Part shown: positions 16,468 to 64,000 of the stretch, in pieces
Position numbering within the stretch: position 1 is the stretch's first letter
Layout: every line of letters starts with the position of its first letter
Assembly (NCBI RefSeq): GCF_004766125.1
Contig: NZ_SJSA01000003.1
Coordinates: forward strand, 1 to 64,000
DNA: 64,000 nt
Reading direction: 5' to 3'
Origin: Duncaniella freteri
GTDB taxonomy: Bacteria; Bacteroidota; Bacteroidia; Bacteroidales; Muribaculaceae
The notes under the pieces: model-generated
Told to the model about the DNA's origin: nothing
The model's database searches: none
Seen by the model: the letters and a program-made list of their open reading frames with translations, nothing else
Program-made: the position numbers and the translations under genes

Positions 16468-17574
16468 TCATTTGAGGGTGATTGAGTTGGCGGCATCACG
16501 CTTCTTCTGGCTGATGACCTCTGCATATATCTGAGTCGTGGCGACGTTTTTATGCGTTAGCATCTTGCTGACGGTGTAGATATCTGTACCGTTGGTAATC
16601 AGAAGTGTAGCGTAGGTGTGGCGAAGACCGTGGAAGGTAAATTTCTTCTTGATACCGGCATCTTTTAGCCATTTCTTGAACGGTTCGCGGGTATGGGCAC
16701 GGCTCAGTCCTTTGAATACCATGCCTCGACCTTGTTCACCACAGTACGACAAGGCTTCATCGCTCAATGGCAGTGTTGCCTGCGTCTTAGTTTTCTGGGT
16801 ACGGATGCGCATACAGTAGCCGCCATCGGGTGACAACTCAATATTCTCCCAACGGAGCTGGAGAATATCGCTGATGCGAAGTCCTGTCATACAGGCGAAG
16901 AGTGATGCACGTTTTAGTACATCGACTTTGCATGGCGTGGCAGCCAGTTTCTTAACCTCCTCGATTTCGAGATAGTTGATTTTCGGTTCCTCCCAGTCAA
17001 TGCGGTCAAGGTAGTCATTGACGTTCTCACGGAGCCAGCCTTCCTTATATGCCAACTTCAACAGAGCGCGGAAGGTTGACCAGTATCCGGCGGCAGAGTT
17101 GCGTGAGATTATGTTGCCCGTTTGTTTCACCCCGATTCTGAGAATGTAGGTGCGAAAGTCGTTACACAGTCCGATAGTCACGTCTTTCATCAGACATCTG
17201 CCATTACAGAAGTCCTTGAAGTGTTTATAGACGATTTCCCATTTCTGATATTTCTCTTTGGTCTTGCTCTCGAAGTATTCAAGAAAGTCCGCTTGTTTCT
17301 TGGTGCGGTCAAGGAAGCCAAACTCCTCATTGATGATTGCCAGTTCGCGGGTGGCACGGATGCCACGGGCTTTGAGCATGATTTCCTCGTTGTAATCAAG
17401 CTCGAACTTGTCTTTTGGATTACCGATGAGATACAGACCGAGAAACTCCCGGCGCGACATCTTCTTGATGTGCGGATTCCAGATGGGTGGGTAGTAGTCG
17501 AGATAGAGCGACAGTTTGCCGCTGCGGAGTTTTTCTTTTCGGAGGGTCACTTTGGTGATTGTTGCTGATTCCAT
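16468..17574 (-). CDS. tyrosine recombinase / integrase
   Basis: 368 residues. The N-terminal arm-binding part (VTLRKEKLRSGKLSLYLDYYPP) precedes a SAM-like core-binding domain. The catalytic domain shows ACMTGLRISDIL (first Arg), TFHGLRHTYATLL (His-x-x-Arg), LTHKNVATTQIYAEV (second His and the Tyr nucleophile): the full R-H-R-H-Y set. This layout is the Bacteroidales phage_int_SAM_5 type used by mobilisable and conjugative transposons. It should catalyse integration and excision of the mobile element; whether it serves the neighbouring phage cannot be excluded. Confidence 0.9.
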   Translation of the reverse strand: MESATITKVTLRKEKLRSGKLSLYLDYYPPIWNPHIKKMSRREFLGLYLIGNPKDKFELDYNEEIMLKARGIRATRELAIINEEFGFLDRTKKQADFLEYFESKTKEKYQKWEIVYKHFKDFCNGRCLMKDVTIGLCNDFRTYILRIGVKQTGNIISRNSAAGYWSTFRALLKLAYKEGWLRENVNDYLDRIDWEEPKINYLEIEEVKKLAATPCKVDVLKRASLFACMTGLRISDILQLRWENIELSPDGGYCMRIRTQKTKTQATLPLSDEALSYCGEQGRGMVFKGLSRAHTREPFKKWLKDAGIKKKFTFHGLRHTYATLLITNGTDIYTVSKMLTHKNVATTQIYAEVISQKKRDAANSITLK

Positions 17575-39953: not shown

Positions 39954-41066
39954 TTACGATACTACTGTTTTGAGGGTATAGATACCGTTCATTTCGGTAA
40001 TAACCGGCAGCGACTGTGATTCAGCCTTGGTATATTCAGTGTGCTTCGAGCCCTCTTTCTGACCGACACTCCACAGAGAAGTGACAATGCGGCCGTAGTT
40101 GGCATACGACACTCCGTCATCCGGCTTCAACTCGCAATCCGAGTAGGCATTCTTGACAACGCCAAGTTCGCCGGCAGGGACGAATACGATGTTGTCTTGA
40201 TTCCACGGGGTGTAAGGAATAGCCTCACGCCCTTTCTGAATGCGTACTATTCGACGGATAGGCTCGAATATCGGGTAGTTGTTCGTCTCCATAAACTCGT
40301 TTATGTCGCGGAGAAGTACCGGCTTTGAGGACTTGTCAGTACCCCAAATAAGCTGCTTCATCTTCTTTGTGCGACACATATACGAGAGTCGGGAGGGCGA
40401 GAGTAGAGCTTTTGCAAGCGCGACCTTATCCTGCGATGCGTCAAGGATAGCTTGAATGTCCTCAAAGCAATCCACAGTGTCGATATTGGCGAGAGTCCAA
40501 GCGGTCTTGCAGCTTGCGATGTTCTCGCCGGGCTGATTGAACGAGATAGAGCCTTTGACACCGCCCTCCGGGTTGGTTGTTTCATCGAAAGTGAACGTAC
40601 CTTCGTTGGAGAGTGCGCCGAGGAATATCATATCGAGTTTGCCGTAAACCGCGTTGACAACGGTCTTAACATCGCCCATCATAAGATTTATGAGGCGGTT
40701 TCTTTTGTCCTCATCCTTGATGAGCTTGCTGTCGAGCAACGAAAGAATCTTTCGGTACGTCTTCATCAGCATCGGGAGCGTGAGGGCGTGGTTTACGAGA
40801 GTTTCTTTGAGTGTTTCTACACCCGAAGTACCCATAATCGGCTCGGCTGCGTTTTCTCCGATAGTCGGTGCGGCTATCGTGATGTTGTACTTGCCGATTA
40901 ACTCTTCAAAATCGAGTTCGATTGTGGGGTCATCCCAGTGCATATATCGCTCAAAGATAACTTGGTCGAAAAGCTGCTTGTTGAGTTCACTTGCAGCATC
41001 GAATCGTATCTGCACCTCTTTGGTGAGGTCACCAAAGACGGAGCTGGATAAAAATTCCTTTGGCAT
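39954..41066 (-). CDS. major capsid protein (phage capsid E-like)
   Basis: 370 residues. TLPMLMKTYRKILSLLDSKLIKDEDKRNRLINLMMGD, LLSPSRLSYMCRTKKMKQLIWG and PFEPIRR-like PIFEPIRRIVRIQKG fit the HK97-fold capsid layout, and the N-terminal FFDQ-like FDQVIFERYMHWDDP resembles the capsid E group. It lies between the scaffold/head genes and connector genes. No cleaved N-terminal delta domain is evident, in line with a separate scaffold gene. Confidence 0.7.
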   Translation of the reverse strand: MPKEFLSSSVFGDLTKEVQIRFDAASELNKQLFDQVIFERYMHWDDPTIELDFEELIGKYNITIAAPTIGENAAEPIMGTSGVETLKETLVNHALTLPMLMKTYRKILSLLDSKLIKDEDKRNRLINLMMGDVKTVVNAVYGKLDMIFLGALSNEGTFTFDETTNPEGGVKGSISFNQPGENIASCKTAWTLANIDTVDCFEDIQAILDASQDKVALAKALLSPSRLSYMCRTKKMKQLIWGTDKSSKPVLLRDINEFMETNNYPIFEPIRRIVRIQKGREAIPYTPWNQDNIVFVPAGELGVVKNAYSDCELKPDDGVSYANYGRIVTSLWSVGQKEGSKHTEYTKAESQSLPVITEMNGIYTLKTVVS

Positions 41067-41727: not shown

Positions 41728-42324
41728 TTACTTTTTGTCGGGGAGTGACTGCGCCCAGGCTTTTGCAGCCGCTTTCGACTCTTCCTCGGAGTTTCCGAGT
41801 TCATGCGAACGGTCTTTCGGCATGAGATTGTTGTTTACAAGGTCTTGTTTGAAGCTGGTGAGTTCTGCGTCAACATCCGCATCGTCTGCCAAATGCAGAC
41901 GCTTCACGAGATAGTCAGGAATGCCGAGCTTCTTTGCCTTGTCAGCGATGAGCGATGCACGTTCCGACTTGGCTTTTTCCTCTTTGAGCGTCTTATTCTC
42001 TGTTTCGAGAGCGTTCAGTCGTTCAGTAAAAGGCTTCATCCATGCCGGTATTTCGTCTTCGCCGGTTTCGCCGTCTTCTTCCTCTCCGTCGCCCTCGCCT
42101 TTGGATGGCTTGGTAGATGATTTCTTGCGTGACTTCCTCGTAATCTCCCCCTGCATCGCTTTTGCATAGGGTACGAGCGAATCCACTTTTGCGGCTATTT
42201 CGTCATCGGTCGCTTCGTCTGTGAGGTCGGAAGCTCCGATTTCAACGAGTTCTTCTATTCCTTTGGGTGTAAGTCCGTATTGCTTACATTTTGCGGTCAG
42301 TGCCGCGAGTAGTTTCTTCTTCAT
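41728..42324 (-). CDS. capsid scaffold-like protein
   Basis: 198 residues, highly charged. A central acidic run (GEGDGEEEDGETGEDE) is followed by coiled coil (FTERLNALETENKTLKEEKAKSERASLIADKAKKL) and an acidic helical end. This composition and position just upstream of the capsid genes are typical of scaffolding proteins. First gene of a leftward transcript starting at the 42.36 kb promoter. Confidence 0.65.
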   Translation of the reverse strand: MKKKLLAALTAKCKQYGLTPKGIEELVEIGASDLTDEATDDEIAAKVDSLVPYAKAMQGEITRKSRKKSSTKPSKGEGDGEEEDGETGEDEIPAWMKPFTERLNALETENKTLKEEKAKSERASLIADKAKKLGIPDYLVKRLHLADDADVDAELTSFKQDLVNNNLMPKDRSHELGNSEEESKAAAKAWAQSLPDKK

Positions 42325-42361
42325 TGCAATGGTTGATTGGGGTTTGAATATTCAATACGCG

Positions 42362-42558
42362 CAAAGATAGGGAGAATTTTCGACATAATACCTATTAAGT
42401 ATCGGAATTTTTCAAAACTTTTTTCTTCTCTCATGTGGCTACCTATTAGCAATATAGGAATTTGAGTAAATTTTTATCAAAAAATAATTGGTGAAAAAGT
42501 TGCCTATTATTAGGATAGTCTATAACTTTGCGACATGAAACAATACTTAATAGATAAC
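42362..42558. promoter_or_regulatory. divergent control region with several palindromic sites
   Basis: Leftward -7 box TATCTTTG (minus strand, 42362-42369); rightward promoter TTG (42500-42502)-N20-TAACTTTG (42523-42530). Four related sites lie between and around them: AATACCTATTAAGTATC (42387-42403), CCTAT-TAGCAAT-ATAGG (42442-42458), CCTA-TTAT-TAGG (42503-42514, between the -33 and -7) and AATACTTAATAGATAAC (42542-42558, just past the start site). They share the TACCTATTA / TACTTAATAG core with sites at 20.76 and 54.71 kb. It looks like the main switch between the virion operon and the plus-strand genes. Confidence 0.6.
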
Positions 42559-42562
42559 GAAA

Positions 42563-42718
42563 ATGAAAATCCGAAAGAAAATAATCAAAGTGAGCCGAGA
42601 AAGAGCGATAGAGTTAGCCGCTAATCTCAACTGCATCTCAAAAGAGATGGCAAGCAAGTACACCGACAGCGAATTGAAAGAGTGCCTGCGTCTTCTCAAA
42701 CTCAAAGCTGACTTCTAA
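42563..42718 (+). CDS. small basic protein, first gene of the plus-strand island
   Basis: 51 residues: a basic start (MKIRKKIIKVSRERAIELAAN) and a helical rest (CISKEMASKYTDSELKECLRLL). It starts about 33 bases after the rightward -7 box. Lys/Arg content suggests nucleic-acid binding. Family not recognised. An overlapping 29-codon frame from 42535 starts too close to the -7 box to be preferred. Confidence 0.5.
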   Translation: MKIRKKIIKVSRERAIELAANLNCISKEMASKYTDSELKECLRLLKLKADF

Positions 42719-42743
42719 TCATCAACCCTCAATCTCAACGCAA

Positions 42744-42953
42744 ATGAAACCCGAACACCTTGCCGAAGCTATAAGCATCATCAGCAACAGCAACTCAATC
42801 AAAGTGTCGTTCAATGTGCCGGTCAATGATAACTACTCGCACACATACGCGATACTCATTCACGAGAGCAACGCATCAGTCGTTAATCAACTCGTAAAAG
42901 CCGGATTCTCGCTCTCTATGAATCCTAAAGGGCTTTCAGTCGATAAATTCTAA
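42744..42953 (+). CDS. small hypothetical phage protein
   Basis: 69 residues, alpha/beta: LAEAISIISNSNSIKVSFNVPVND, then YAILIHESNASVVNQLVKAGFSLSM. No motif recognised. It lies in a run of small genes spaced 10-25 bases apart. Confidence 0.6.
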   Translation: MKPEHLAEAISIISNSNSIKVSFNVPVNDNYSHTYAILIHESNASVVNQLVKAGFSLSMNPKGLSVDKF

Positions 42954-42967
42954 ATCCAATCTACGCA

Positions 42968-43168
42968 ATGAAGACTTATGACGAAACAATGAGCATACTC
43001 AATAGCTCAAAGCAATTCAAATTCGAGTATAACGAGGATAGCGGTCGCCCGACAGTACTTGCCGTAACTGATTACTATACCGGCGAGAGTGTCAAACTTG
43101 ACCTCTCACGCCTCACCCCGGAGATGCTTGATGAACTTCAGATAGAAGATTCGGAAGATGAATACTAA
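42968..43168 (+). CDS. small acidic hypothetical phage protein
   Basis: 66 residues, acidic at the C-terminus (EMLDELQIEDSEDEY). FKFEYNEDSGRPTVLAVTDYYTGES suggests a small beta sheet. No family recognised. Overlaps the next possible start by 11 bases. Confidence 0.6.
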   Translation: MKTYDETMSILNSSKQFKFEYNEDSGRPTVLAVTDYYTGESVKLDLSRLTPEMLDELQIEDSEDEY

Positions 43169-43352
43169 AGCAAGCATGGAACAATATACTGTAACTTTCT
43201 TCGTAGAAAAGACTGATTTAGCCGGGAATCATAAGGGCATGGAGAAGCGAGTAATCCGAACCGGCAAAACTACTATCGCAGAAGCCGCAGAAGTGGCGAT
43301 TGCTCACGGTGCCAATCCGTTCAAAAATTGGAAGCTAACTTGGGAAAAATAA
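43158..43352 (+). CDS. small hypothetical phage protein
   Basis: 64 residues from 43158, or 58 from the ATG at 43176 (MEQYTVTFFVEKTDLAGN), which avoids the overlap. YTVTFFVEK...KRVIRTGKTTIAEAAEVAIAHGANPFKNW looks like a compact alpha/beta fold. No function assigned. Confidence 0.6.
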   Translation: MNTKASMEQYTVTFFVEKTDLAGNHKGMEKRVIRTGKTTIAEAAEVAIAHGANPFKNWKLTWEK

Positions 43353-43373
43353 CAACTCTAAAATACAACGCAA

Positions 43374-44276
43374 ATGATTACTGAAACCACTCTCGAAAAC
43401 AAGATGTTTGACTTCGACAAAGCGAAAGTTCAAACGCTCTCACTCGCTCAATTAGAGCGCACACACCGTGAAAACGATGTCTACGGCAAGCCGCTTCGTG
43501 GTATCTATCACTTCGAGCTGCTGCAAACGCTCATCAACGAGTGCAACAACCTCGGCTATAACGTAGAGGTTTATGACCTCTTTGCCGCGCAGAACAAAGA
43601 CCGCAGCACTCCCGGCGTGGTGCTGCTCCCACAAGTCGAAGCACAATACGGCGAAAGAGCCTTTGAAGCTCACATATTGCGCCGCGTCTTCGCTAACATC
43701 CGTATAACTGACTTCGATGATGAGGAAAAGACAACAAACCTCGCAGTCGCTTTCCATCAGAAAGGCATTCAAGTCGGCTTCGGAAACATGGTCAAAATCT
43801 GCCACAATCAAACTATGCTTTGCGCCGACAAGTATATCGCCACATACAATGAGCGCGGCAAAGGGCGCGGCGAAGCTATCACGATTCCGCAAGTTCTCGA
43901 TGTTGTCAAGTCGTGGCTTGTAGATGCCAGGCACATCATCGTGACCGAGCGCGAAAAGATAGAGCGCATGAAAGAGATTGAGGTCGGCGTTCAACAAGCT
44001 CTCTTGCTCATCGGTATGCTGACCGCAATTCGCGTTAAGTGCGACTCTGCATATCCGACAATCAAGGAGAATCGCGTCTATCCGCTCAATCAAGCTCAAA
44101 TAACAAAGTTCACGGAGAGCTTGTTGCTGAAGTATCACGATACACCAAGCGTTTCAGCGTGGGACTTGTATAACGCCGCGACTGACCTTTACAAAGCTGA
44201 CTCGATGGATATTCCGGCACTCATGCCGCAGAATCGCGCAATGGTGCAATTCCTCAACGAGCAATTCAATATCTGA
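43374..44276 (+). CDS. DUF932-like phage/plasmid protein
   Basis: 300 residues. HQKGIQVGFGNMVKICHNQTMLCADKYIATYN is typical of the DUF932 family, which occurs in phages and plasmids with unknown role. YPLNQAQITKFTESLLLKYHD and SAWDLYNAATDLYKADSMDIPALMPQNRAMVQFLNEQF also match its C-terminal part. Largest gene of the first half of the island, followed by a gap of 39 bases. Confidence 0.65.
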   Translation: MITETTLENKMFDFDKAKVQTLSLAQLERTHRENDVYGKPLRGIYHFELLQTLINECNNLGYNVEVYDLFAAQNKDRSTPGVVLLPQVEAQYGERAFEAHILRRVFANIRITDFDDEEKTTNLAVAFHQKGIQVGFGNMVKICHNQTMLCADKYIATYNERGKGRGEAITIPQVLDVVKSWLVDARHIIVTEREKIERMKEIEVGVQQALLLIGMLTAIRVKCDSAYPTIKENRVYPLNQAQITKFTESLLLKYHDTPSVSAWDLYNAATDLYKADSMDIPALMPQNRAMVQFLNEQFNI

Positions 44277-44342
44277 CACAACATATCATCAACCGGCGAG
44301 AGGTAGCCTTAGCCGTTGCCTCTCGCCCTTACAATCAATCTA

Positions 44343-44516
44343 ATGGCAGACAGTAAAGAACAACTAACAGCAAACGATGAGGAGCTTATCGAGCTTGCTT
44401 ATTCGACAACATACCGCAGTTCCATTCGTCAGTATATCCGCGAAGCTGACACGGAGCGTTGTCGTGAGATTTTAACCCGAATTATGAATGAATCTGATGT
44501 TGAATGGGAGGACTGA
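44343..44516 (+). CDS. small acidic hypothetical protein
   Basis: 57 residues from MADSKEQLTANDEELIEL; an in-frame ATG at 44316 is less likely given spacing. Helical and acidic (YIREADTERCREILTRIMNESDVEWED). Family not recognised. Its stop lies 2 bases before the next ATG. Confidence 0.55.
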   Translation: MADSKEQLTANDEELIELAYSTTYRSSIRQYIREADTERCREILTRIMNESDVEWED

Positions 44517-44518
44517 AG

Positions 44519-44908
44519 ATGAAAAAAGCACTTATTATCGACACCGGCGAAGTGATTAGGGTTGTCGAAGTTATCAAAACGACTAACAACGGCACGATAT
44601 TTCGCGATGTCGCTACCGGCAAAACATACTACGACCGCGAGATTCAGATATTCGATGACAGTGGCGTTATGGAGTTCGTTGAAATGTGGCTCCCGAACTA
44701 TTATCACTCTGACATGATTGGGTGGATTGACGACCTGCATTGCGCTCTTGATAACGAGTGCGATGATGAAAAGCTCGCTCGTATAGAAGAAGCGTGGGGA
44801 ACTGACCCCAAAGGATGGCTCTACGAGTTAATCAATCTTGAATCGGCTGCATATCGCCACGCCCTTGAAAGATTCTACGAGCTGCAATATCCCGGTATTA
44901 AATCCTAA
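44519..44908 (+). CDS. hypothetical phage protein
   Basis: 129 residues from MKKALIIDTGEVIRVVEVIKT. A small beta domain (TIFRDVATGKTYYDREIQIFDDSG) is followed by an acidic helical part (DMIGWIDDLHCALDNECDDEKLARIEEAW). Family not recognised. Last gene before a hairpin and a new promoter. Confidence 0.6.
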   Translation: MKKALIIDTGEVIRVVEVIKTTNNGTIFRDVATGKTYYDREIQIFDDSGVMEFVEMWLPNYYHSDMIGWIDDLHCALDNECDDEKLARIEEAWGTDPKGWLYELINLESAAYRHALERFYELQYPGIKS

Positions 44909-44940
44909 TAGGCACGGTAAGGTTAGCCTACTCCGCATTT

Positions 44941-44987
44941 CTCGCTTTCAGTTGATAAAATATACATTTATTCGGCTGAAATGCGAG
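44941..44987 (+). terminator. hairpin between two parts of the plus-strand island
   Basis: CTCGCTTTCAG (44941-44951) and CTGAAATGCGAG (44976-44987) pair with one bulged A. It separates the DUF932 group from the ADP-ribosylhydrolase group. Confidence 0.45.
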
Positions 44988-45005
44988 GATTAGCGAGGAA
45001 ATGAG

Positions 45006-45013
45006 TAATTTTG
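45006..45013 (+). promoter_or_regulatory. -7 promoter element for the ADP-ribosylhydrolase group
   Basis: TAATTTTG fits TAnnTTTG and lies 25 bases before the next ATG. No good -33 element is visible. Confidence 0.4.
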
Positions 45014-45038
45014 CAAAACCTTAAAACTCAACGCAAAA

Positions 45039-45278
45039 ATGGAATCATCGAAAGTCGTACACGTTCACTTCAAAAAGCCATACGAGGGAATGACTGACCT
45101 CTATTTCGGCTCTCTGAAAGCGATATATCTTCAAGTGCCGGAAGATATAATCGGGATAAAATACAAGTCGCTTACAAACGCCATTCGAGGCAAAGATTGT
45201 TACGAGAATAAACGCTGCATTATCCGCATCGGTGCATTGCAGCGTATGTCAAATATAAAAAACAAAGACAAACAATGA
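45039..45278 (+). CDS. hypothetical protein upstream of the ADP-ribosylhydrolase
   Basis: 79 residues, basic (VVHVHFKKPYEGMTDLYFGSLKAIYLQVPEDIIGI). Overlaps the hydrolase gene by 4 bases (ATGA), so the two are translated together. Beta-rich; family not recognised. May help the hydrolase or be a separate small regulator. Confidence 0.6.
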   Translation: MESSKVVHVHFKKPYEGMTDLYFGSLKAIYLQVPEDIIGIKYKSLTNAIRGKDCYENKRCIIRIGALQRMSNIKNKDKQ

Positions 45279-46045
45279 TAGGAGCAATAATAGGCGACAT
45301 TGCCGGTTCTCGTTTCGAGTTCAACAATACGAATGACTATAACTTCGAGTTCTTTCACAAAGATTGCCGTTATACCGATGACACAATATGCACGGTTGCC
45401 GTTGCAGACGCTATTCTACACGGCGTGAGCTATAAAGATAGCATCTTGTATTGGTGTCGCAAATATCCGCATCCTATGGGCGCGTATGGTGGCTCTTTCT
45501 CACGTTGGCTGCATGAAGATGACCCGCAACCGTACAATTCATTCGGGAATGGTGCTGCAATGCGAGTATCGCCGGTTGCATGGGCATTTGATGATGCAAG
45601 CGATGTTATGCGTCAAGCTATGTCAAGCGCGGAATGCTCACACAATCACTATGAGGGTATCATTGGGGCAATAGCGACTGCGGAGTTGATTTTTTCATTT
45701 CGCAAGCTGCCGGAAAAAGATAACTTTGTGAATCTAATCGGAGGACTGTATTACGGTCAAAATTGGGAAAACAATTTGCCGCGTCCTGGCGTTTTCGATG
45801 AAACTTGTCAAGGCTGCGTGCCACTCGCATTTCACATCATCAAAGAGAGTTCATCATTTGAAGATGCTGTGCGTAATGCCGTAAGCTACGGCGGCGATTC
45901 AGACACGCTCGGCGCAATAGTCGGCTCAATAGCTGAAGCTCGTTGGGGTGTGCCTATCGAGATGCAAAAGATGGCTCTGAATATGCTTCCACAAGATATG
46001 CTCAAAGTCGTTACTAACTTCATACAAAAGTGTCAATACAAATGA
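45275..46045 (+). CDS. ADP-ribosylglycohydrolase (DraG/ARH family)
   Basis: 256 residues. The N-terminus IGAIIGDIAGSRFEF, the metal site RYTDDTICTVAVAD (TDD) and the C-terminal YGGDSDTLGAIVGSIAEARWG (GDSDT) are the three signatures of DraG/ARH enzymes, which use two Mg ions to remove ADP-ribose from protein Arg or other acceptors. Complete and of normal length for phage/bacterial members. It is encoded tail-to-tail with a head protein that carries an ADP-ribosyltransferase, which suggests it protects the infected cell or phage proteins from that activity. Confidence 0.9.
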   Translation: MIGAIIGDIAGSRFEFNNTNDYNFEFFHKDCRYTDDTICTVAVADAILHGVSYKDSILYWCRKYPHPMGAYGGSFSRWLHEDDPQPYNSFGNGAAMRVSPVAWAFDDASDVMRQAMSSAECSHNHYEGIIGAIATAELIFSFRKLPEKDNFVNLIGGLYYGQNWENNLPRPGVFDETCQGCVPLAFHIIKESSSFEDAVRNAVSYGGDSDTLGAIVGSIAEARWGVPIEMQKMALNMLPQDMLKVVTNFIQKCQYK

Positions 46046-46350
46046 GCAAAGATTCATTACTCAAATTATGCCGTTACTATCACGGTGAAAAAAATAATCC
46101 ATACGAGGGCGATAAAGCTCTATTATGGGATTATGAAAGAGCTTGGGTTGAAGATTCTGCGAATGATTCAGATTCAAATTCCGAGTATCTTTCGGATTAT
46201 CTGACTTACGGACTGCGTGACTTCTCGAAGTTCGATAAAATCCCGGTCACGCTCAAAGCAATGTTATTCAATCGCTATGCGAAAAACGCATACTCAATGA
46301 AAGATGCCGTTTCCGGCTTCAAAGAGTTTTATCAGAAATACTACAAGTAG
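46042..46350 (+). CDS. hypothetical protein coupled to the ADP-ribosylhydrolase
   Basis: 102 residues from MSKDSLLKLCRYYHGEKNN, overlapping the hydrolase stop by 4 bases. KALLWDYERAWVEDSANDSDSNSEYLSDYLTYGLRDFSKFDKIP is acidic and Tyr/Trp-rich. Family not recognised. The protein ends one base before a strong terminator shared with the head gene. Confidence 0.6.
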   Translation: MSKDSLLKLCRYYHGEKNNPYEGDKALLWDYERAWVEDSANDSDSNSEYLSDYLTYGLRDFSKFDKIPVTLKAMLFNRYAKNAYSMKDAVSGFKEFYQKYYK

Positions 46351-46376
46351 CAAAGGGCGCGATTATGCGCCCTTTG
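46351..46376. terminator. bidirectional terminator between hydrolase group and head gene
   Basis: CAAAGGGCGC-GATTAT-GCGCCCTTTG, a perfect 10-bp stem filling the gap between two convergent stop codons. Confidence 0.85.
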
Positions 46377-46378
46377 TC

Positions 46379-49162
46379 TTACTTCGTCATACCGGTTGGC
46401 TGTGTGAACTGCTGACCGATTAACATTAAGTATAAATTTTTGCCGCTCTTTCTGATTACTTTGAATCTACTGCCGCGCTGACCTATCCATTCAAACTCAC
46501 CTCCTAACCCCACTTTTTCAGTACCGTTCCATATTCGGGTCTGATAGTCATAATAACCGGCGTTATAATGAGTGAACGGTTCTGCGAATATGCCTTGTGC
46601 GCCCTTCGGTATCAAAATAATCATATTAACAGAGCCGCCGAATCCCTTATCTCGGTGACACGCCGTTGATAAGAATGCGCCGTCAATGAACGTATCGCCA
46701 ACTTCGGCTTGGCTCAAATTCTTGCCGATTTCCGGAATATAATAATCGCTCGTACCTCGCCTTACGACCATATCTTGCTTTGTCTTAACACGGCTCAAAG
46801 CTGCGGTTATTTTCGGCATATCATTGTCATATTCATCTTTCGCTCGTCCGCCACAATATGACATATTACGCAATGGCTCGTTGAGGTAGCTATATGTCTG
46901 CGTATATTTAGTGAGCAACATACGTTCTTCTTCGATAAGTCCTTTCCATGCTTCTTCAGTAGCCGGACGCATCACATCATCCATGCCCTCTACTGTATTG
47001 ACTTTGTAATCATCGAGCAACTCTTTTTGTCGCTTTTTTGATAGCTCCTTAAATGTGACTTCACCGATTTTGCTACCCTTGACAGCTTTTTGCGCTGCTG
47101 CTTTTTCTTGTAGTTCTTTTCGTTTTTGGGCGTAGTCAATCTTCGCTTTAATCGTAAGCATATCGCCGCCGGATGCAAGCAACAATTCTGCTTCCAAGAC
47201 AGCATTAGCGACCGTAGTGGCTTTCGGGTGTGAAGCGACATACACTTTCAGTTTGTCGATAGTGTCTTTCGCCTCCGCTACTGCTATTTGCTTCTTAACT
47301 TCATCGAGCTTCTTCATATAAGCATCTTGAGCTACATTCCAAGTCGGATATTGCTTATGCGGCTTCAGATATGTAGGGTCAGATACCCACTTGATTTCTT
47401 TCTCAATCGCTTTGACTTGCTCGTATAATGGAAGTGTCGATATGTTCGCGAGTTTCGATTCAACGGCGGCATACACTTGTTGCAGTTCTGCAAGCGTGAA
47501 TTGTTCGTGCCAAGTGTGAGCATCCGGGATTATAGCTGACAATGCTTGCTCGGCTTTCTTCATCGCGAGTACACTTTGAGCGAGGGCGCGTGTCTGCTTG
47601 TGTATCGCTTCAAGATTGCCGGATGCAAGAGCTTCGTTGAGTGCGGTCGTATCGACTTCGCTATAACCGTCAGCAATACTATTGACCTTTTTGGCAGTTG
47701 CTTTGATAAGCTGCTGTTTTGCTGACATAGCGAGTGCGAGCGTCCGTGTCTGCGCTTGAATGAGTGCTGTGTTTCCGCTCTTGATTGCTTCTTCGAGTTC
47801 GGCGGTAGATATGCCGAAAGATGCAAACCGCTTGGCGGCTGCATTGAGTACGTTGTTTGCAGTAGCGTTGACTTGTCGCGAATGTCTTTTTTCGGCTTCG
47901 ATTCTCTCGCTTCGCTCTTTCCAACGGCGGCGAATCTCGTCCTCTTGCTCCGGCGTTCTCGCTTCATGCCGTTTCGCCGCGATTTGCTGCGGTGTGAGCT
48001 TCTTTAATGACGGGTCAAGTATTTCATCTATCGCCATAGCGTTGTTGCGGATAAAGTACGGTTCTGTGCCTCTATCGCGAGATTGTGCGATGTCTTCTTT
48101 ATGCTCTGACACCCACTGTTTGAAATTGTCCGGGTAGTCAGTTATTCGCTTGCCCCTCGGCACATACTTTTCGCCACGCAAAAACGCTTCTGATACTTTC
48201 GCCATTTCATCTTCATCCATCAGAATCGGAGTAACGAAACAAAAGCATTGCGGATGCCAACCGTCAAAGACAAAATCAACCGGATAATCACCTGCGAGCT
48301 TGTCGCAAATGTCTTTTTTCGGGTGCGAGCGTGAGAGATTGACACGTTGACCGAGAACAAAGTCCATTTGTTGCCACCGTTCATTGTCTGCTCTGCGATA
48401 TGCGATATTCGTTTCAGTTCGAGCAACACGCATAGCGTTTTGAGCTGAAGACTTGTAATAGCCGCGCCCAGTCCATTGGTCTTGATAAGTACGCTTGTCG
48501 TAGTCTATCCATTTGACTTTGCCGGTTGCCGGGTCTTTGATACGCTTCTTCCATTTGCGCCGCCATTCGCCGGATTCAGGGTCTTTATATCTGAATCGGC
48601 GAAACATCAAGTCCGGGTCGTTGAGGTACTGACGGACTTTGCGCGACATTTGCGCCGCCGATTCTCCCTCTCCGACTGAAACTGTTATCGCGACTTCCAT
48701 TTCATCGCGTAGCTGCTCGACGGCTTTCCATACTCGCTGTGACAAATTCAACCCCTTTTCACTTCGAGCGATAAAAGCGTTCATCGCCGCATTGTTACGT
48801 TGAGTCCATGCCGAAAATTCGGGTGAAGATAATGCGCGTTTGCCAAAGCACGATTGCACGAGCTTGTCACATTCTTCATTAGCTTGCGCCCATTCGAGTT
48901 TGATGCCTTTTTCGATAGCCATAGTCGCGACTGCATGAAGCTGACGGAGTAACCGCTCAACTTCCTTTTGTCGCTTCATTGATTCTCCGGCGAAAGAAAA
49001 CATCTCGCCCTCGTCAAGCTGCGGCATAGAGCGATTCAAAGCGAGAATTTCATTGACTGTTGCCGCGAACAACGTGCGCACACGCTCGGCGTATGCTTCA
49101 GTACGCTTTATTCGCGCTTGTGTCGCGCTCTTGGGGTCTATGTCATTTTGCTTCTTTGCCAT
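46379..49162 (-). CDS. SPP1 gp7/Mu gpF-type head morphogenesis protein fused to ADP-ribosyltransferase
   Basis: 927 residues from MAKKQNDIDPKSATQARIK; starts further upstream overlap the previous gene more. The head-morphogenesis domain shows ARTETNIAYRRADNERW and HPQCFCFVTPI, as in Mu gpF-like proteins that enter the capsid. A long helical middle with repeated AL-rich segments follows. The last 130 residues have the R-S-E core of ADP-ribosyltransferases: RRGTS (Arg near 801), GAFLSTACHR (STx near 831) and GEFEWIGQRGSRFKV, an E-x-E near 889-891, typical of Arg-specific toxins. Probably injected with the DNA, like T4 Alt. Confidence 0.85.
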   Translation of the reverse strand: MAKKQNDIDPKSATQARIKRTEAYAERVRTLFAATVNEILALNRSMPQLDEGEMFSFAGESMKRQKEVERLLRQLHAVATMAIEKGIKLEWAQANEECDKLVQSCFGKRALSSPEFSAWTQRNNAAMNAFIARSEKGLNLSQRVWKAVEQLRDEMEVAITVSVGEGESAAQMSRKVRQYLNDPDLMFRRFRYKDPESGEWRRKWKKRIKDPATGKVKWIDYDKRTYQDQWTGRGYYKSSAQNAMRVARTETNIAYRRADNERWQQMDFVLGQRVNLSRSHPKKDICDKLAGDYPVDFVFDGWHPQCFCFVTPILMDEDEMAKVSEAFLRGEKYVPRGKRITDYPDNFKQWVSEHKEDIAQSRDRGTEPYFIRNNAMAIDEILDPSLKKLTPQQIAAKRHEARTPEQEDEIRRRWKERSERIEAEKRHSRQVNATANNVLNAAAKRFASFGISTAELEEAIKSGNTALIQAQTRTLALAMSAKQQLIKATAKKVNSIADGYSEVDTTALNEALASGNLEAIHKQTRALAQSVLAMKKAEQALSAIIPDAHTWHEQFTLAELQQVYAAVESKLANISTLPLYEQVKAIEKEIKWVSDPTYLKPHKQYPTWNVAQDAYMKKLDEVKKQIAVAEAKDTIDKLKVYVASHPKATTVANAVLEAELLLASGGDMLTIKAKIDYAQKRKELQEKAAAQKAVKGSKIGEVTFKELSKKRQKELLDDYKVNTVEGMDDVMRPATEEAWKGLIEEERMLLTKYTQTYSYLNEPLRNMSYCGGRAKDEYDNDMPKITAALSRVKTKQDMVVRRGTSDYYIPEIGKNLSQAEVGDTFIDGAFLSTACHRDKGFGGSVNMIILIPKGAQGIFAEPFTHYNAGYYDYQTRIWNGTEKVGLGGEFEWIGQRGSRFKVIRKSGKNLYLMLIGQQFTQPTGMTK

Positions 49163-49364
49163 GCTTGCATTCATCGGGGTAATAGTCCTCATCTTCCACG
49201 CATTCCGGCGCATATTGCGGAAATACGTTGAATCCTACCTGACGGCGTGAAGATTCTTGCTCAATCGGCATTTCTTCTGAATAGATGCAAATGCCGAATG
49301 CGTAGATTGAAGTCCGCTGAATCTTTTTGTCAGTCGTGATTCGCTTGAAGATTATCGACTTCAT
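49143..49364 (-). CDS. small hypothetical protein between portal and head morphogenesis genes
   Basis: 73 residues, overlapping the portal gene by 4 and the head gene by 20 bases. IIFKRITTDKKIQRTSIYAFGICIYSEE is beta-rich; the end is acidic (EDEDYYPDECKHGKEAK). Family not recognised. Coupling on both sides suggests a virion or assembly role. Confidence 0.55.
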   Translation of the reverse strand: MKSIIFKRITTDKKIQRTSIYAFGICIYSEEMPIEQESSRRQVGFNVFPQYAPECVEDEDYYPDECKHGKEAK

Positions 49365-50890
49365 TTCTTTTCTTTTTTCGATTTCTTCTCATCGCCAGGC
49401 TTCTTTTCCTCATCTTCCTCTCCGTCTTCTTCATCGTCACCGTCAGAGAATGATTGCGCTCCGGCTTCGCCTCCATCATCGCCGAATATAGACTGTTGCT
49501 GTTTCATTCGCTCGTCTGCTTCAGCTTTGATGCGTTCTTTTTCGAGTGCCGTGTCAGAAATAAGAGGATTCTTTTCGATAGCTGTTTCATTCGACATGAT
49601 TTCTGCATCGAGGCAAGCTGTGATGTTCTTGATGTCAGCTTCGATGTCTTCTCCGAACGGCTCTTGAAACTCGTGAGCAACGCTCAATTCGTCACACTGA
49701 CTTTTGAGCGACACATCGAGTACATTGCCGATGATTGCTCCAATGAGAGAGCCGGTGCGGTCAAGTAGTTCATCGTGGCTTTCTTTGCGCTTCGATGCCT
49801 TGATGTCTGCAAGCATCATAACCGTGCGCAATGCCTTTGCCGAGAGTTGCGAGATTGATTTGAGCGTGTCGAGAGTGATGTTCGGCGTGAATGACTTTGA
49901 GAGTATATGAGCTTCGAGGAAGTCAAGCTCATCTTTCTTCGACTGTGGAGCGTTATCCCACGTGACATAAGCCATTGCGTTTTGAACACCGTCTTTATTG
50001 TTCGTGTATAGAGCTTTGCCGACATCTCCTTTTTCGGGCAGATTCTTGATAACATCGGCGTTATACACGGCAATAGGGTCGGCGAAGTAGTCATTGGTAT
50101 CGGCGTTTCTTGACGCTATCCATTCCTCGCGGTTGATAAGATGCTCTACGCCCTCCCATTCTTTCTCTTGCTGAAAAAGAATGATAGGAATCTTGCCTAT
50201 GAAGTTGATTTCTTTCTCAACTTGCCACCCGAGGGACTTCTTTGTGCATCGGTATATAAATTCCGGCGTGAAGATGTCGAAGTGATATACGACTTTATCC
50301 TCTTTTTCGCGCACGTTATATCCCCATGCCACCGAGATTAGATTCTCGTACTGGTCCCAACGTGTGTATATCTCATCGCCTTTGCTCTTGGCGAGTACGC
50401 GAATCTGCACGTCCGGGTTGCCGTCATCGTCTTTGAACACGCGGAATAGCATCGCGCTCTCTGTTTCCTTTCCGGCGAGTCGCTTGCATTGGCGTATCTT
50501 ACTGTTGAATCGGGTGCGCTTGATTACATCGAGGAACTTTGCAAACGCTTCGTCAGTACCCTCGGAAACTTGTGTCCACTTAACCGGGCGACCGTAGAGA
50601 AACACAAGCGCGATTTCGTTGATATAGGCTTGATACGGAATGGGGAGCTTCCACAAGTGTTGCACCCCACGCCGGTTGCCTTTCTTGTCGGTTAGAATCT
50701 TATCCTTTCGGGACATTACTTCGTGCGTTGCGGTGTCATACTCACGCATCGCGCTGTCTGCTGCGCGTCCGTTGGTGCGCATCTTCGACCGAATCTGCGA
50801 TATGTCGCCGGAAGCGAGTAGTTCATCAAACTCTTGCTTTCTTCCGGCAATTCGGTTGATGAGGTTAGTCGTTACTTGCAAAAACTGCAT
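49361..50890 (-). CDS. portal protein (SPP1 gp6-like)
   Basis: 509 residues. HLWKLPIPYQAYINEIALVFLYGRPVKW, YFADPIAVYNADVIKNLPEKGDVGKALYTNN and VTWDNAPQSKKDELDFLEAHILSKSFTPNITLDTLKSISQLSAKALR match the SPP1-type portal that forms the dodecameric DNA channel. The C-terminus is disordered and charged (GDDEEDGEEDEEKKPGDEKK). Placed after the large terminase, as expected. Confidence 0.85.
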   Translation of the reverse strand: MQFLQVTTNLINRIAGRKQEFDELLASGDISQIRSKMRTNGRAADSAMREYDTATHEVMSRKDKILTDKKGNRRGVQHLWKLPIPYQAYINEIALVFLYGRPVKWTQVSEGTDEAFAKFLDVIKRTRFNSKIRQCKRLAGKETESAMLFRVFKDDDGNPDVQIRVLAKSKGDEIYTRWDQYENLISVAWGYNVREKEDKVVYHFDIFTPEFIYRCTKKSLGWQVEKEINFIGKIPIILFQQEKEWEGVEHLINREEWIASRNADTNDYFADPIAVYNADVIKNLPEKGDVGKALYTNNKDGVQNAMAYVTWDNAPQSKKDELDFLEAHILSKSFTPNITLDTLKSISQLSAKALRTVMMLADIKASKRKESHDELLDRTGSLIGAIIGNVLDVSLKSQCDELSVAHEFQEPFGEDIEADIKNITACLDAEIMSNETAIEKNPLISDTALEKERIKAEADERMKQQQSIFGDDGGEAGAQSFSDGDDEEDGEEDEEKKPGDEKKSKKEKK

Positions 50891-50909: not shown

Positions 50910-52382
50910 TTAAAAAACTTGTAAATCGTCATAATCAAAATTATCATCGTCTTCTTCGTAGAGGTCATTAATGGCATAGCCGAGAACATCCACAAACTCA
51001 TCGTGCGTTGAAGCCGGGAATGCGCATACTTGATTCAAAAAATCTTCGTTCCAAGAGCCTTCGACTATGAAGACACGGCCGCACTCTATGCGCGGCGAAA
51101 CGACACGGAAACGCACTTCTTTATCGTCTGTCGGTGTCGGCGTTTCCTTGACGTTGAGAGTCGATATTTCACGCAACATCTGCACAACTGATATGCCGTT
51201 AGCCTTTGGCTCGATATTGAGCTTGCTTTCACGAGTGCCTTTGTGCGCTGATATGTATTCGGGGAGAAACCGCAGTAAGTCAGGCATTTCTTTGTAGACG
51301 GACTGTGCATCGTAGATGTAGATGTTGTTCTGAATGCGACACGCTGCAAGTATGCCCGATGGGTCATTGTCTTTGCCGACTTTCTTCTTGTTGTAAGCGG
51401 TATCGAGATAGAAGTGCATCGGCTCGTTGTATCGCAATGAGAGAAATTCAGCCATTGAGATTTTACGAAACCAATCGCGCTTAACGATGTTGCCGCCCTC
51501 GATTGTCGGGTGCTGCTGATAGAGTGCTGAAAACTCACGCGGTGCGCGTTGCTGTTGCTTCAGTAGCTTTGCAAGCGAATGTTTCCACGGCCATAGAGCA
51601 TCTCCAATGTGCCGCTGTGAGAGTCCGTTGTCATTCTCATACTCACATATCGCCGGAATCACAAGCACAGTCCAATCTTGCGGCTCGGCTTTCAATATGC
51701 GCCCTGCCAAATCGTCTTCATGCCAGCGCGTCATAATAAATAGCTGTTTGCTCTCATTGTGAAGTCGGGTTGTCAGTACGGTATTGTACCAATTCCACAC
51801 CTTTTCACGATATGTAGCCGAGTATGCTTCGCTTGCGTCTTTAACCGGGTCGTCAATGATTGCAATATCGACCGGCGTACCTGTCAAGCCGCCGCCAACG
51901 CCGACAGCTTTGTAGAATCCTTGTCGCCCGACTGTTTCAAAAATATCCACATTACGCAAATAGCCTTTTGTGTCAGTTCTCACATTAGAGCCATTGAGAT
52001 AAGTGTTAGGGAAAATTGCCTGATACTCTTTACTGTCGATTGTGCGCTGTATCGAGCGAGAGAATTGAGATGCAAGATCAATCGTATATGAACTGCCGAC
52101 TATTCTTAAATCGGGATTCTTTCCGAGTACCCAAGCCGGAAAGTTGCGAGAGATGATTTCTGACTTACCGTGCTGCGGCGGCATGAATACCATAAGATTT
52201 TTGATTTCGCCATTATATAGTTTCTGACAATAATCAGCGATTAAGATATGAAACCACTCCGCACGATATTTCGGGTTGACATAGCCGAGAAAAGACGCAA
52301 AGCGTTCCGGCGCATCTCGCTTCAGCTTAATGCGCTTCAATTTCAGTAGCCTTTTCATCGTGTCACTCTCCGTTGATGTCAT
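50910..52382 (-). CDS. terminase large subunit
   Basis: 490 residues. ATPase motifs: MPPQHGKSEIISR (Walker A, with PQHGKSE), VDIAIIDDPVKDA (Walker B) and LFIMTRWHEDDLAG (coupling segment). The nuclease part has HFYLDTAYNKKK and later VDVLGYAIND. This is the Terminase_6 type motor that cuts and packs DNA. Overlaps the small subunit by 4 bases. Confidence 0.9.
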   Translation of the reverse strand: MTSTESDTMKRLLKLKRIKLKRDAPERFASFLGYVNPKYRAEWFHILIADYCQKLYNGEIKNLMVFMPPQHGKSEIISRNFPAWVLGKNPDLRIVGSSYTIDLASQFSRSIQRTIDSKEYQAIFPNTYLNGSNVRTDTKGYLRNVDIFETVGRQGFYKAVGVGGGLTGTPVDIAIIDDPVKDASEAYSATYREKVWNWYNTVLTTRLHNESKQLFIMTRWHEDDLAGRILKAEPQDWTVLVIPAICEYENDNGLSQRHIGDALWPWKHSLAKLLKQQQRAPREFSALYQQHPTIEGGNIVKRDWFRKISMAEFLSLRYNEPMHFYLDTAYNKKKVGKDNDPSGILAACRIQNNIYIYDAQSVYKEMPDLLRFLPEYISAHKGTRESKLNIEPKANGISVVQMLREISTLNVKETPTPTDDKEVRFRVVSPRIECGRVFIVEGSWNEDFLNQVCAFPASTHDEFVDVLGYAINDLYEEDDDNFDYDDLQVF

Positions 52383-52905: not shown

Positions 52906-53781
52906 TTATTCTTTCTTTTTGTATTTCTCTCTGATGATTTTTGGAGCCGTAAGAGTCCAATTTACGCGGTGGTGTAAACGCTTCTGATTGACATACTCGT
53001 TACCCATAGTCCGCACTTTGACTGATGACGGCTGATACATGACCGTGAAAAACGACTTGAGATAAGTGCCGGAATCGAGATATACTTCAGTCATGCCACC
53101 GGCATTCGATTGAGTCTGTTTTTGCAAGAGGCATATTTGCTGAATCTGCAAAAACAAGTCGCCGGTTGAAGTATTGCGCGTGTACGTGTTCACATCTTCA
53201 TTGATGCGCCCAAGAAACGTGAATCGCCGTTCAGTGTCGCAAATAAACGAGTTCATTGCTTTTCGCTTCGTGCGTAGCTGCTTGCCCTCGCCACCGGCAC
53301 CACCGCCGAGATAATCGCCACCCTGCGCCATTGCGATTGACTTAGCCGGAATCTTCTTGAAGAAGTCGAGCATAATATCAAAGACGGCATCGAGATTGCG
53401 GATTACCTTGTCTTTGGTAATGTAGCGTAGACGGTTATCAAACCTCCATTCAAAGACTGTATAATCATCGTCAAGCTCGATAAAGTAGCGATAGCCGAGT
53501 TTCTTTGCGATGTCGAAACAAGCATTTCGGGCATACACAATCGTGCGTCTATCTCCAGGCACTCCCTCATCGAATGTTTCAGCGATTGCGGCTTTGTCGA
53601 AGATTACTACATTCTCGTTGCCGAATCGTGATATGTATTCCGGCGCGGATGGGTCTTCGTTGTCAAGCACGATGACAATACGCCCGGTATAGCCCGACTT
53701 CTTCAAGCTGTCATAGGTCACAACTCGGTCAGCTCTGCCGTGAGAGAGGATAAAAGCGACAAAATTCTTATTCTTCATCAT
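52906..53781 (-). CDS. GT-A-type glycosyltransferase, possibly acting on DNA bases
   Basis: 291 residues. The N-terminus FVAFILSHGRADRVVTYDSLKKSGYTGRIVIVLDNED and the metal motif YFIELDDDYTVFEW (DxD) give a GT-A fold. GGDYLGGGAGG, FICDTERRFTFLGRINEDVNTY and NAGGMTEVYLDSGTYLKSFF are further conserved-looking blocks. It overlaps a ParB-fold gene by 14 bases and precedes terminase. In phages this pairing is described for glycosyltransferases linked to hypermodified DNA (TAGT-type). No TET/JBP or base-hydroxylating gene is seen in the window, so the acceptor is open. Confidence 0.65.
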   Translation of the reverse strand: MMKNKNFVAFILSHGRADRVVTYDSLKKSGYTGRIVIVLDNEDPSAPEYISRFGNENVVIFDKAAIAETFDEGVPGDRRTIVYARNACFDIAKKLGYRYFIELDDDYTVFEWRFDNRLRYITKDKVIRNLDAVFDIMLDFFKKIPAKSIAMAQGGDYLGGGAGGEGKQLRTKRKAMNSFICDTERRFTFLGRINEDVNTYTRNTSTGDLFLQIQQICLLQKQTQSNAGGMTEVYLDSGTYLKSFFTVMYQPSSVKVRTMGNEYVNQKRLHHRVNWTLTAPKIIREKYKKKE

Positions 53782-58705: not shown

Positions 58706-58980
58706 ACCCTCTGTTTTTTGAGTTTCAATGAGAATATTCCTTTTGCTTTATCCCATTCGGGGTAACTGTATTTGTCTTGCGGATTGAAAGTGCTTATCCA
58801 CAATTTTATCTGCCTTTCAAACTTTTGTTGGTCTTTTTGTGCTTCAACCGAATTGAGAATGTTGCAAAACTCAATCGCCGCGTTCTGATAGTCGCCAAAG
58901 CATTTAAGTGGAGAAACATTGTACCCGTCCATCCAACTCACAACGTAACCGTCAGAGGTATGTGTCTTTACCGCTTTCAT
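58702..58980 (-). CDS. hypothetical protein after the C5 methyltransferase
   Basis: 92 residues from MKAVKTHTSDGYVVSWMDG, whose ATG overlaps the methyltransferase stop by 4 bases. The sequence YSYPEWDKAKGIFSLKLKK ends it. No family recognised. Coupled on both sides. Confidence 0.6.
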   Translation of the reverse strand: MKAVKTHTSDGYVVSWMDGYNVSPLKCFGDYQNAAIEFCNILNSVEAQKDQQKFERQIKLWISTFNPQDKYSYPEWDKAKGIFSLKLKKQRV

Positions 58981-63621: not shown

Positions 63622-63623
63622 CT

Positions 63624-64000
63624 TTATTTCTTTTTGCGGTTGACCCATACGGTAGGCTTTATCACGTTGTAAGGGCAGATTACGACTGTTATTTCTTCAG
63701 TCAGAATGAAAGTGTTACCGCCTGTGTTTCCGCTTGCAACGTAGTTGCATTTGTCGATACCAAGCAACTCCATTGCATCGCAAAGAGCAAGCAACTGATA
63801 TGCGTTGAAAACTTGCTCATAGATACCGATTGAAGCCTCATACGGAGGTATCAGTCGCCCGGTTGGTTTCTCTATTGCCGGAGATGAATTTCCGGTGCCT
63901 TTGCATACCGGGCACGTGTGATATTCTCTGTGCGTGAAGTTGTGTTTGTCTTCATACTCCCATTCGACTTCGCCGTCACCATCACAATCCTCGCACTCAA
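63624..64000 (-). CDS. protein with DnaJ-type zinc finger, partial
   Basis: At least 125 residues; the start lies beyond the window. ECEDCDGDGEVEW and HTCPVCKGTG are two CxxCxGxG units as in DnaJ-type zinc fingers. The C-terminal part (NAYQLLALCDAMELLGIDKC...ILTEEITVVICPYNVIKPTVWVNRKKK) is a small alpha/beta domain I do not recognise. Ends 2 bases before the helicase-methylase ATG. Confidence 0.6.
   Translation of the reverse strand, partial: ECEDCDGDGEVEWEYEDKHNFTHREYHTCPVCKGTGNSSPAIEKPTGRLIPPYEASIGIYEQVFNAYQLLALCDAMELLGIDKCNYVASGNTGGNTFILTEEITVVICPYNVIKPTVWVNRKKK

Follow-up and report, generated by a model that had tools for sequence, protein, structure and literature searches.

A MuF-ADP-ribosyltransferase gene in a Duncaniella freteri prophage converges on genes for an ADP-ribosylhydrolase and a candidate binding inhibitor

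The 64,000 bp of Duncaniella freteri DNA analysed here (bases 1-64000 of a contig of the 3.55-Mb genome, hereafter the window) carry a prophage with integrase, head, tail, portal and terminase genes. The head genes are encoded on the minus strand. An island of small plus-strand genes is found between a minus-strand ORF (41728-42324) and the gene of a MuF-type head protein that ends in an ADP-ribosyltransferase (ART) domain (46379..49213, minus strand). The island (~42700-46350) thus interrupts the minus-strand head genes, and the same inversion is present in phage Versailles (L002) and Porphyromonas phage005 (L003). It ends with an ORF of 79 amino acids (aa) (45039..45278, plus strand), the gene of a 256-aa ADP-ribosylhydrolase (ARH; 45275..46045, plus strand), and a 102-aa ORF whose product resembles Bsi, a small neighbour of a published MuF-ART toxin (46042..46350, plus strand). 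A 26-bp inverted repeat (46351..46376) separates this last ORF from the converging MuF-ART gene. The stop codon of the 79-aa ORF overlaps the ATG of the ARH gene, whose own stop codon overlaps the ATG of the 102-aa ORF (ATGA in both cases), an organization that suggests one coupled operon. The inverted repeat has perfect 10-bp arms and a 6-nt loop (-20.6 kcal/mol, z -5.65) and is probably a bidirectional terminator. A scan of positions 42000-50000 for sigma-70-type promoters gave no excess over shuffled sequence (11 found, shuffle mean 12.1). The initial annotation of this region had placed the ART and ARH genes in direct convergence with only a 26-bp terminator between them. The genes are convergent and the repeat exists, but the 102-aa gene was missed, so that a gap made of the terminator alone is rejected.

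The MuF-ART ORF has 944 codons, with a likelier start at the ATG at 49162 that yields a protein of 927 aa. Its N-terminal part identifies a head protein: the ORF matches the head morphogenesis family phrog_7625 (2.5e-52) and phrog_16625, annotated as “Bxa ADP-ribosyl transferase” (9.4e-138, best stretch residues 18-437), and the portal and terminase genes adjoin it. The closest named MuF relative found, 95% identical, is in a Muribaculaceae record (L242). The tail (residues 685-944 of the 944-aa ORF; 46379..47161, minus strand) matches PF03496 (1.3e-14, residues 755-887) and carries R819, S849 and E906-x-E908. This is the single PF03496 match in the genome, and none was found in 14 control genomes. 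Among 22 aligned ART tails the serine and the ExE motif are invariant and the arginine is nearly so. The AlphaFold2 (AF2) model of the tail (pLDDT 87.0) has 8za7_B as best Foldseek match, next to other R-S-E ARTs, and the model thus assigns the tail to the ART fold. The initial annotation had itself named modelling and residue conservation as checks of its proposed R-S-E/ExE ART, which is borne out by them and by the family matches. Arginine-directed activity is predicted from the ExE motif and from a PF01129 match in a relative (L062).

The second enzyme is a DraG/ARH-family hydrolase with all expected sites, as had been proposed. It matches PF03747 (4.1e-31; 109.2 bits for a cut-off of 26.2) and phrog_6572 (9.1e-63), displays the catalytic and metal-site motifs E15, TDD and GGDSDT, and is the single ARH match in its genome. 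ARH3, DraG, Lmo0067 and ARH1 are found among its sequence relatives in the Protein Data Bank (PDB). Its scores lie below the curated equivalog cut-offs of DraG (TIGR02662, 44.3 of 337 bits) and Tri1 (NF041672, 19.4 of 490 bits). The 102-aa protein belongs to phrog_19606 (3.5e-22, with the ORF taken from the GTG at 46030), and its AF2 model (residues 2-102, pLDDT 93.7) is all-helical with five helices. Searched against PDB sequences, the Bsi profile gave no match at E up to 1. Family, position and the co-variation described below agree in making this protein a probable candidate for a binding inhibitor of the ART. PADLOC anti-phage defence models run against four proteins matched no family at E up to 0.01.

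An equivalent arrangement has been studied in Bacteroides stercoris. According to Alexei and co-workers (PMC11699363), the prophage MuF-ART Bxa kills E. coli and modifies arginine. The adjoining ARH, BAH, removes the arginine-ADP-ribose mark and requires E15 for this, while the small neighbour Bsi co-purifies with Bxa and gives moderate neutralisation, both proteins having been tested in E. coli. A further small ORF at that locus, RS09440, did not neutralise Bxa. The authors further describe different toxin tips borne by this MuF, and report that BAH and Bsi-like genes co-occur with orthologues of Bxa. The window shares with this system the MuF N-terminus, the R-S-E/ExE ART C-terminus, the adjoining BAH-like ARH with E15, a small Bsi-like protein as putative non-enzymatic partner and an ORF at the position of RS09440. 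Since gene and domain order are those of Bxa-BAH-Bsi-RS09440, the locus appears to be a further member of the published system and the pairing itself is not new; the initial annotation overlooked both this publication and the Bsi-like gene. Phage Versailles has the same layout, and because the length of its MuF-ART (869 aa) and the number of its second ExE glutamate (820) equal those published for Bxa, we infer that it can stand in for the latter. By this comparison identity to the window proteins is 41% for MuF, 59% for ARH, 36-38% for the Bsi-like protein and 28% for the ART tail. Bxa, BAH and Bsi have been assayed, whereas the window copy is known from its sequence and models.

The generality of the association was surveyed starting from MuF proteins. 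Scans that used their N-termini as queries returned the best 80 of at least 526, of at least 591 and of 264 relatives, and more exist. The 219 loci obtained, together with the window and three phage records, make 223 loci, 203 of them with a complete MuF ORF, that form 130 clusters at 90% identity. Leaving out 25 clusters with less than 3 kb beyond the MuF 3′ end, 105 clusters were sorted by two iterated ART profiles into ART (49) and other (56) types, and neighbours were counted within 4.5 kb. ARH genes lie near 43 of the 49 ART-type clusters and near one of the 56 others (Fisher 1e-21), and Bsi-like genes near 42/49 and 2/56, respectively. Both antidotes accompany 38 ART clusters, ARH alone five and the Bsi-like gene alone four (L250, L253, L275 and L309, the last with two Bsi-like genes), so that 47 of the 49 have at least one. 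These counts include two clusters (L042 and L096) moved to the ART class after the fact because their MuF ORF ends at an in-frame stop and the ART continues immediately behind it without a change of frame; unmoved, ARH is found near 41/47 versus 3/58 clusters. Chance placement of ARH genes beside MuF-ARTs is rejected on this basis, and the survey speaks against a random occurrence of the hydrolase with respect to MuF toxins, which the initial annotation had named as a refuting outcome. The tails of the non-ART clusters include Gln_amidase, CdiA_C and LPD3 domains and, by our reading, metalloprotease-like ends with an HEFGH motif.

Some individual loci deserve mention. In the phage contigs L042 (6977-9562) and L096 (4119-6809), MuF and ART lie in one frame interrupted by the single in-frame stop, and both ARH and Bsi-like genes are kept; a recoded stop is one conceivable explanation. 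The sole non-ART cluster with an ARH gene is L083 (7052-9556; 12372-13223), whose tail is of the HEFGH type. Five loci (L041, L044, L237, L247 and L312) carry at the Bsi position a Cys-rich ORF of 67-77 aa, and their ART tails score weakly with the first ART profile. A full ARH gene is kept in L044 and L312. The Cys-rich protein is possibly a second family of blockers.

Viewed from the ARH side, the best 80 of 268 loci on viral contigs gave 52 clusters at 90% identity, 47 with 3 kb of downstream sequence. A MuF-ART gene is found downstream in 37 of these and upstream in one (L159), and nine have none; all 65 MuF ORFs downstream of ARH, counted before dereplication, are on the opposite strand. 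Among 119 genomes of the host family, ART tails were found in nine, Bsi-like sequences in 13 and ARH in 40. The ARH gene is at most 0.6 kb from the tail in eight of the nine ART genomes (two of which, G000 and G057, look near-identical), and the ninth (G077) has a 502-aa MuF-ART ORF and no ARH match in its genome. A second, interrupted ART match is found in G037. ART thus predicts ARH, whereas ARH does not predict ART.

The sequences of the two antidotes behave differently with respect to that of the toxin. In 2016 pairwise comparisons among the 64 distinct loci that have all parts, the more alike two ART tips are, the more alike their Bsi-like proteins tend to be (correlation of identities 0.82). 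Controlling for MuF and ARH leaves a partial correlation of 0.76 (0.70 for 51 dereplicated loci; Mantel p 0.001, the minimum attainable with 1000 permutations), while that between ART and ARH is 0.03 (-0.03 for 51 loci) and not significant. Pairs of close relatives illustrate this. Contigs L018 and L014 are 97-99.6% identical over three stretches, with two non-matching stretches between them. One of these (L018 2984-4717) covers the ART tip together with most of the gene for the Bsi-like protein. Its left edge falls at about codon 12 of that gene, where the conserved motif CR(Y)YxGE is encoded. The last 170 columns ahead of the edge contain a single mismatch, and the preceding 2983 bp, ARH included, are 99.6% identical. 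The other non-matching stretch (L018:10126-11354) is far behind the MuF gene. Likewise, L030 (from the contig of L018) and L031 have identities of 100% for MuF, 25% for ART, 34% for the Bsi-like protein and 99% for ARH, and L276 and L273 of 92, 26, 38 and 83%. In L047/L045 the ARH differs as well (57%), which indicates that the exchange edge is not always in the Bsi-like gene.

We consider it very probable that the prophage makes a MuF-ART toxin and shields its own cell from it with a blocker specific to the toxin and an eraser of general action. The capsid-type protein would carry an arginine-directed ART toxin at its C-terminus. As this toxin would be made inside the phage-producing cell, the opposing operon would protect that cell in two layers: the ARH as a generic enzyme taking ADP-ribose off arginine, and the Bsi-like protein as a toxin-specific blocker sitting over the active site of the ART. 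The toxin would then presumably travel with or in the virion and act in the next cell or after lysis. That the window proteins act like Bxa, BAH and Bsi would follow by analogy, and the delivery steps are likewise conjectural. The initial annotation had considered an antidote protecting phage-producing cells, and this suggestion is well supported, by analogy with the B. stercoris system (PMC11699363) and by the survey from the MuF side. The injected ART with a cytosolic eraser that it also put forward would belong to the conjectural delivery steps. Overall, its observation is partly confirmed and its interpretation partly supported.

Several points weigh against this interpretation. Six of the 49 ART clusters have no ARH gene (L041, L247, L250, L253, L275 and L309), two of them (L041 and L247) have neither antidote, and the ARH counted for L237 is a 65-aa fragment. 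We chose the tails from which the ART profiles were built, many of them ARH-linked, so that ART types missed by these profiles may be hidden among the non-ART clusters, and among the ten proteins submitted to Pfam, which besides two outside the ART class (L035 and L048) comprised eight ART-class tails other than that of the window, four of the eight scored above cut-off (L022, L041, L062 and L075). ARH is common without ART in the family genomes (40/119 against nine with an ART tail), and all 7999 of 7999 scored database candidates are ARH relatives. The Bsi contact residues reported for the Bxa system, K89, Y90 and E92 (taken as K86, Y87 and E89 in Versailles), are only partly kept, the aligned window residues being, by our reading, K, N and Y. 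One pair of loci, L155/L156, runs opposite to the others (MuF 99, ART 49, Bsi 93 and ARH 98% identity), the MuF ORF of L155 stopping before the ART core. Finally, the ART and Bsi-like genes adjoin, and linkage alone could explain their joint travel. The next gene in line, ARH, is uncoupled from the ART, which argues for function over linkage without amounting to proof.

Part of the alternatives concern the purpose of the toxin. Lysogens could release the ART to modify epithelial host proteins and thereby feed the bacterium, ARH and the Bsi-like protein stopping self-harm before release. Such a role as a gut fitness factor is reported for B. stercoris Bxa (PMC11699363; PMC11959909). It calls on the same antidote mechanism as blocker-and-eraser protection, and is therefore a rival on purpose only; the 28% identity of the ART tail to that of Versailles indicates that the target may differ, and we regard this role as rather unlikely for the window locus.

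The ART of phage T4, Alt, is delivered together with the DNA and aids infection by modifying host proteins. An ART in the window prophage that entered in this way, with the ARH later erasing its marks or limiting their dose, would make the two enzymes a matter of mutual timing and not of immunity. The MuF domain being that of a head protein, the opposed strands of ART and ARH and the MuF-ART fusions of other phages (PMC9503650) fit such a scheme. Yet immunity, and not timing, would lead one to expect a non-enzymatic partner that co-varies with the ART, toxin tips of other kinds (Gln_amidase and CdiA_C among them) are found on MuF proteins of this family, and Bxa kills E. coli (PMC11699363). 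We judge host modification on entry to be improbable. An ARH that is independent of the toxin, an auxiliary gene for the salvage of ADP-ribose or for anti-defence that came to lie near MuF by an accident of phage modularity, is hardly credible: it would suit the wide occurrence of ARH on chromosomes without ART (40/119 versus nine genomes), several times next to NUDIX- or SIR2-type genes, and the lack of co-variation with the ART, but not the 43/49 versus 1/56 contrast obtained in the same scans (Fisher 1e-21).

Protection by a blocker and an eraser sets a system studied in one strain within a broader phage survey, and leads to a testable rule for MuF toxins, that the ADP-ribose eraser goes with the toxin's chemistry and the small partner with the toxin's sequence. 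If this is true, ARH would be expected to protect across ART tips and Bsi would not. More tentatively, and with less than even confidence, we propose a division of labour in which the generic ARH tolerates any arginine-directed ART tip and the Bsi-family blocker is exchangeable. The coding stretch of the conserved N-terminal CRYYxGE motif would be a possible crossover point, at which tip and blocker could be replaced in one recombination, the eraser protecting the recombinant at once. Both antidotes might also have escaped as stand-alone immunity of hosts or mobile elements against phage-borne ARTs (orphan Bsi-like genes, integrase-adjoining ARH genes with or without Bsi, and a Bsi-NADAR fusion). 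The orphan antidotes point to a possible bacterial defence against such ARTs. In the literature searched, from which most subscription papers and supplements were out of reach, no description of the block exchange or of the contrast between ARH and Bsi was found.

Antidote-like genes away from MuF-ARTs are of several kinds. Orphan Bsi-like genes occur in G017, G060, G040 and G109 (L323-L326, in this order) and, as two in tandem, in G110 (L327). No ART-tail match was found in these five genomes and no MuF, ART or ARH match in stretches of 9.7-12 kb around the genes; ARH is absent from these genomes or on another contig. A 517-aa chromosomal protein of G023 (L328:5167-6720) joins a Bsi-like stretch to a NADAR domain (PF08719, 1.2e-56), a fusion through which the Bsi family is connected with ADP-ribose chemistry away from MuF loci. 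Three ARH loci without MuF-ART (L107, L139 and L154) adjoin phage-integrase-family genes, and the neighbour in L151 is 90% identical to the L139 integrase. Bsi-like sequence is present in L139 and L151, the latter having ARH and Bsi-like parts in one 462-aa ORF, possibly an assembly error. In three more loci without MuF-ART (L172, L179 and L181) the ARH neighbour is 49-55% identical to a NUDIX protein of L334, and L179 also has a SIR2 gene. L165 and L170 complete the nine ARH clusters without MuF-ART. The ARH genes of L334, L335 and L338 adjoin NUDIX-like genes as well. Together with those of L172, L179 and L181 they are of chromosomal type, and the phage ARH may have its cellular origin among such genes.

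The 79-aa ORF that opens the operon (phrog_10608, 2.1e-20) is at the position of the B. stercoris gene BACSTE_RS09440. Its homologues are found near 46/49 ART clusters and also near 27/56 non-ART clusters, on which ground we judge it unlikely to be an ART-specific immunity gene. They also lie beside short toxin-less MuF genes (L007, L055 and, at 3-4 kb, L204 and L279), which makes a regional phage gene the likelier assignment, and in L003 an annotated transcriptional regulator occupies the position. Enrichment at ART loci (p 1.7e-7) speaks for a specific role, and the profile is broad (140 matches), so paralogues may have been counted; the Discussion of PMC11699363 also suggests otherwise for the RS09440-type gene. 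A gene that is not ART-specific fits the published failure of RS09440 to neutralise Bxa, for which it offers a possible reason.

Related pairs outside the Bxa group share parts of this design. Lmo0066/Lmo0067 (PDB 8za7) combines an R-S-E ART with an ARH immunity protein, and both window proteins match it, the ART by Foldseek and the ARH by sequence. To our knowledge this pair is neither fused to a phage head protein nor accompanied by a Bsi-like third gene, and a literature search found no paper on it. In the type VI effector pair Tre1/Tri1 (PDB 6drh), too, the immunity protein of an ART is of the ARH type. Tri1 acts both by sequestration and by cleaving ADP-ribose (PMC7827354), whereas the window is predicted to split binding and hydrolysis over two proteins, and the match to the Tri1 model is weak. 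The ART-ARG toxin-antitoxin pair of certain Aeromonas phages resembles the window in joining a phage ART to an ARH-type enzyme, but its description in the accessible text of PMC9503650 mentions neither a MuF fusion nor a third partner. The MuF alarmone toxins of the Apk2/Aph1/Tis1 type likewise have one enzymatic and one binding antidote but use (p)ppApp synthetase chemistry instead of ADP-ribosylation (PMC11699363). A literature search for ARH in P. gingivalis phages led nowhere. DraG, of the ARH family and among the PDB matches of the window ARH, serves with DraT in the reversible regulation of nitrogenase and not as immunity to a toxin.

The remaining landmarks of the prophage are all on the minus strand. 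The portal protein gene (49361..50890; PF05133, 3.8e-27) and that of the terminase large subunit (50910..52382; PF03237, 2.5e-15; phrog_38, 3.3e-106) are next to the MuF-ART gene, the major head protein gene (39954..41066; phrog_29, 1.6e-16) is on the far side of the plus-strand island, and the integrase gene is at 16468..17574 (phrog_1, 3.5e-46). A megablast search of 20 kb of the window against phages gave no match. The window also encodes a TET-associated glycosyltransferase (52906-53781; PF20691, 1.6e-33), a C5 cytosine methylase (58977-60677) and a helicase-methylase (61414-63648), from which the phage DNA may be modified.

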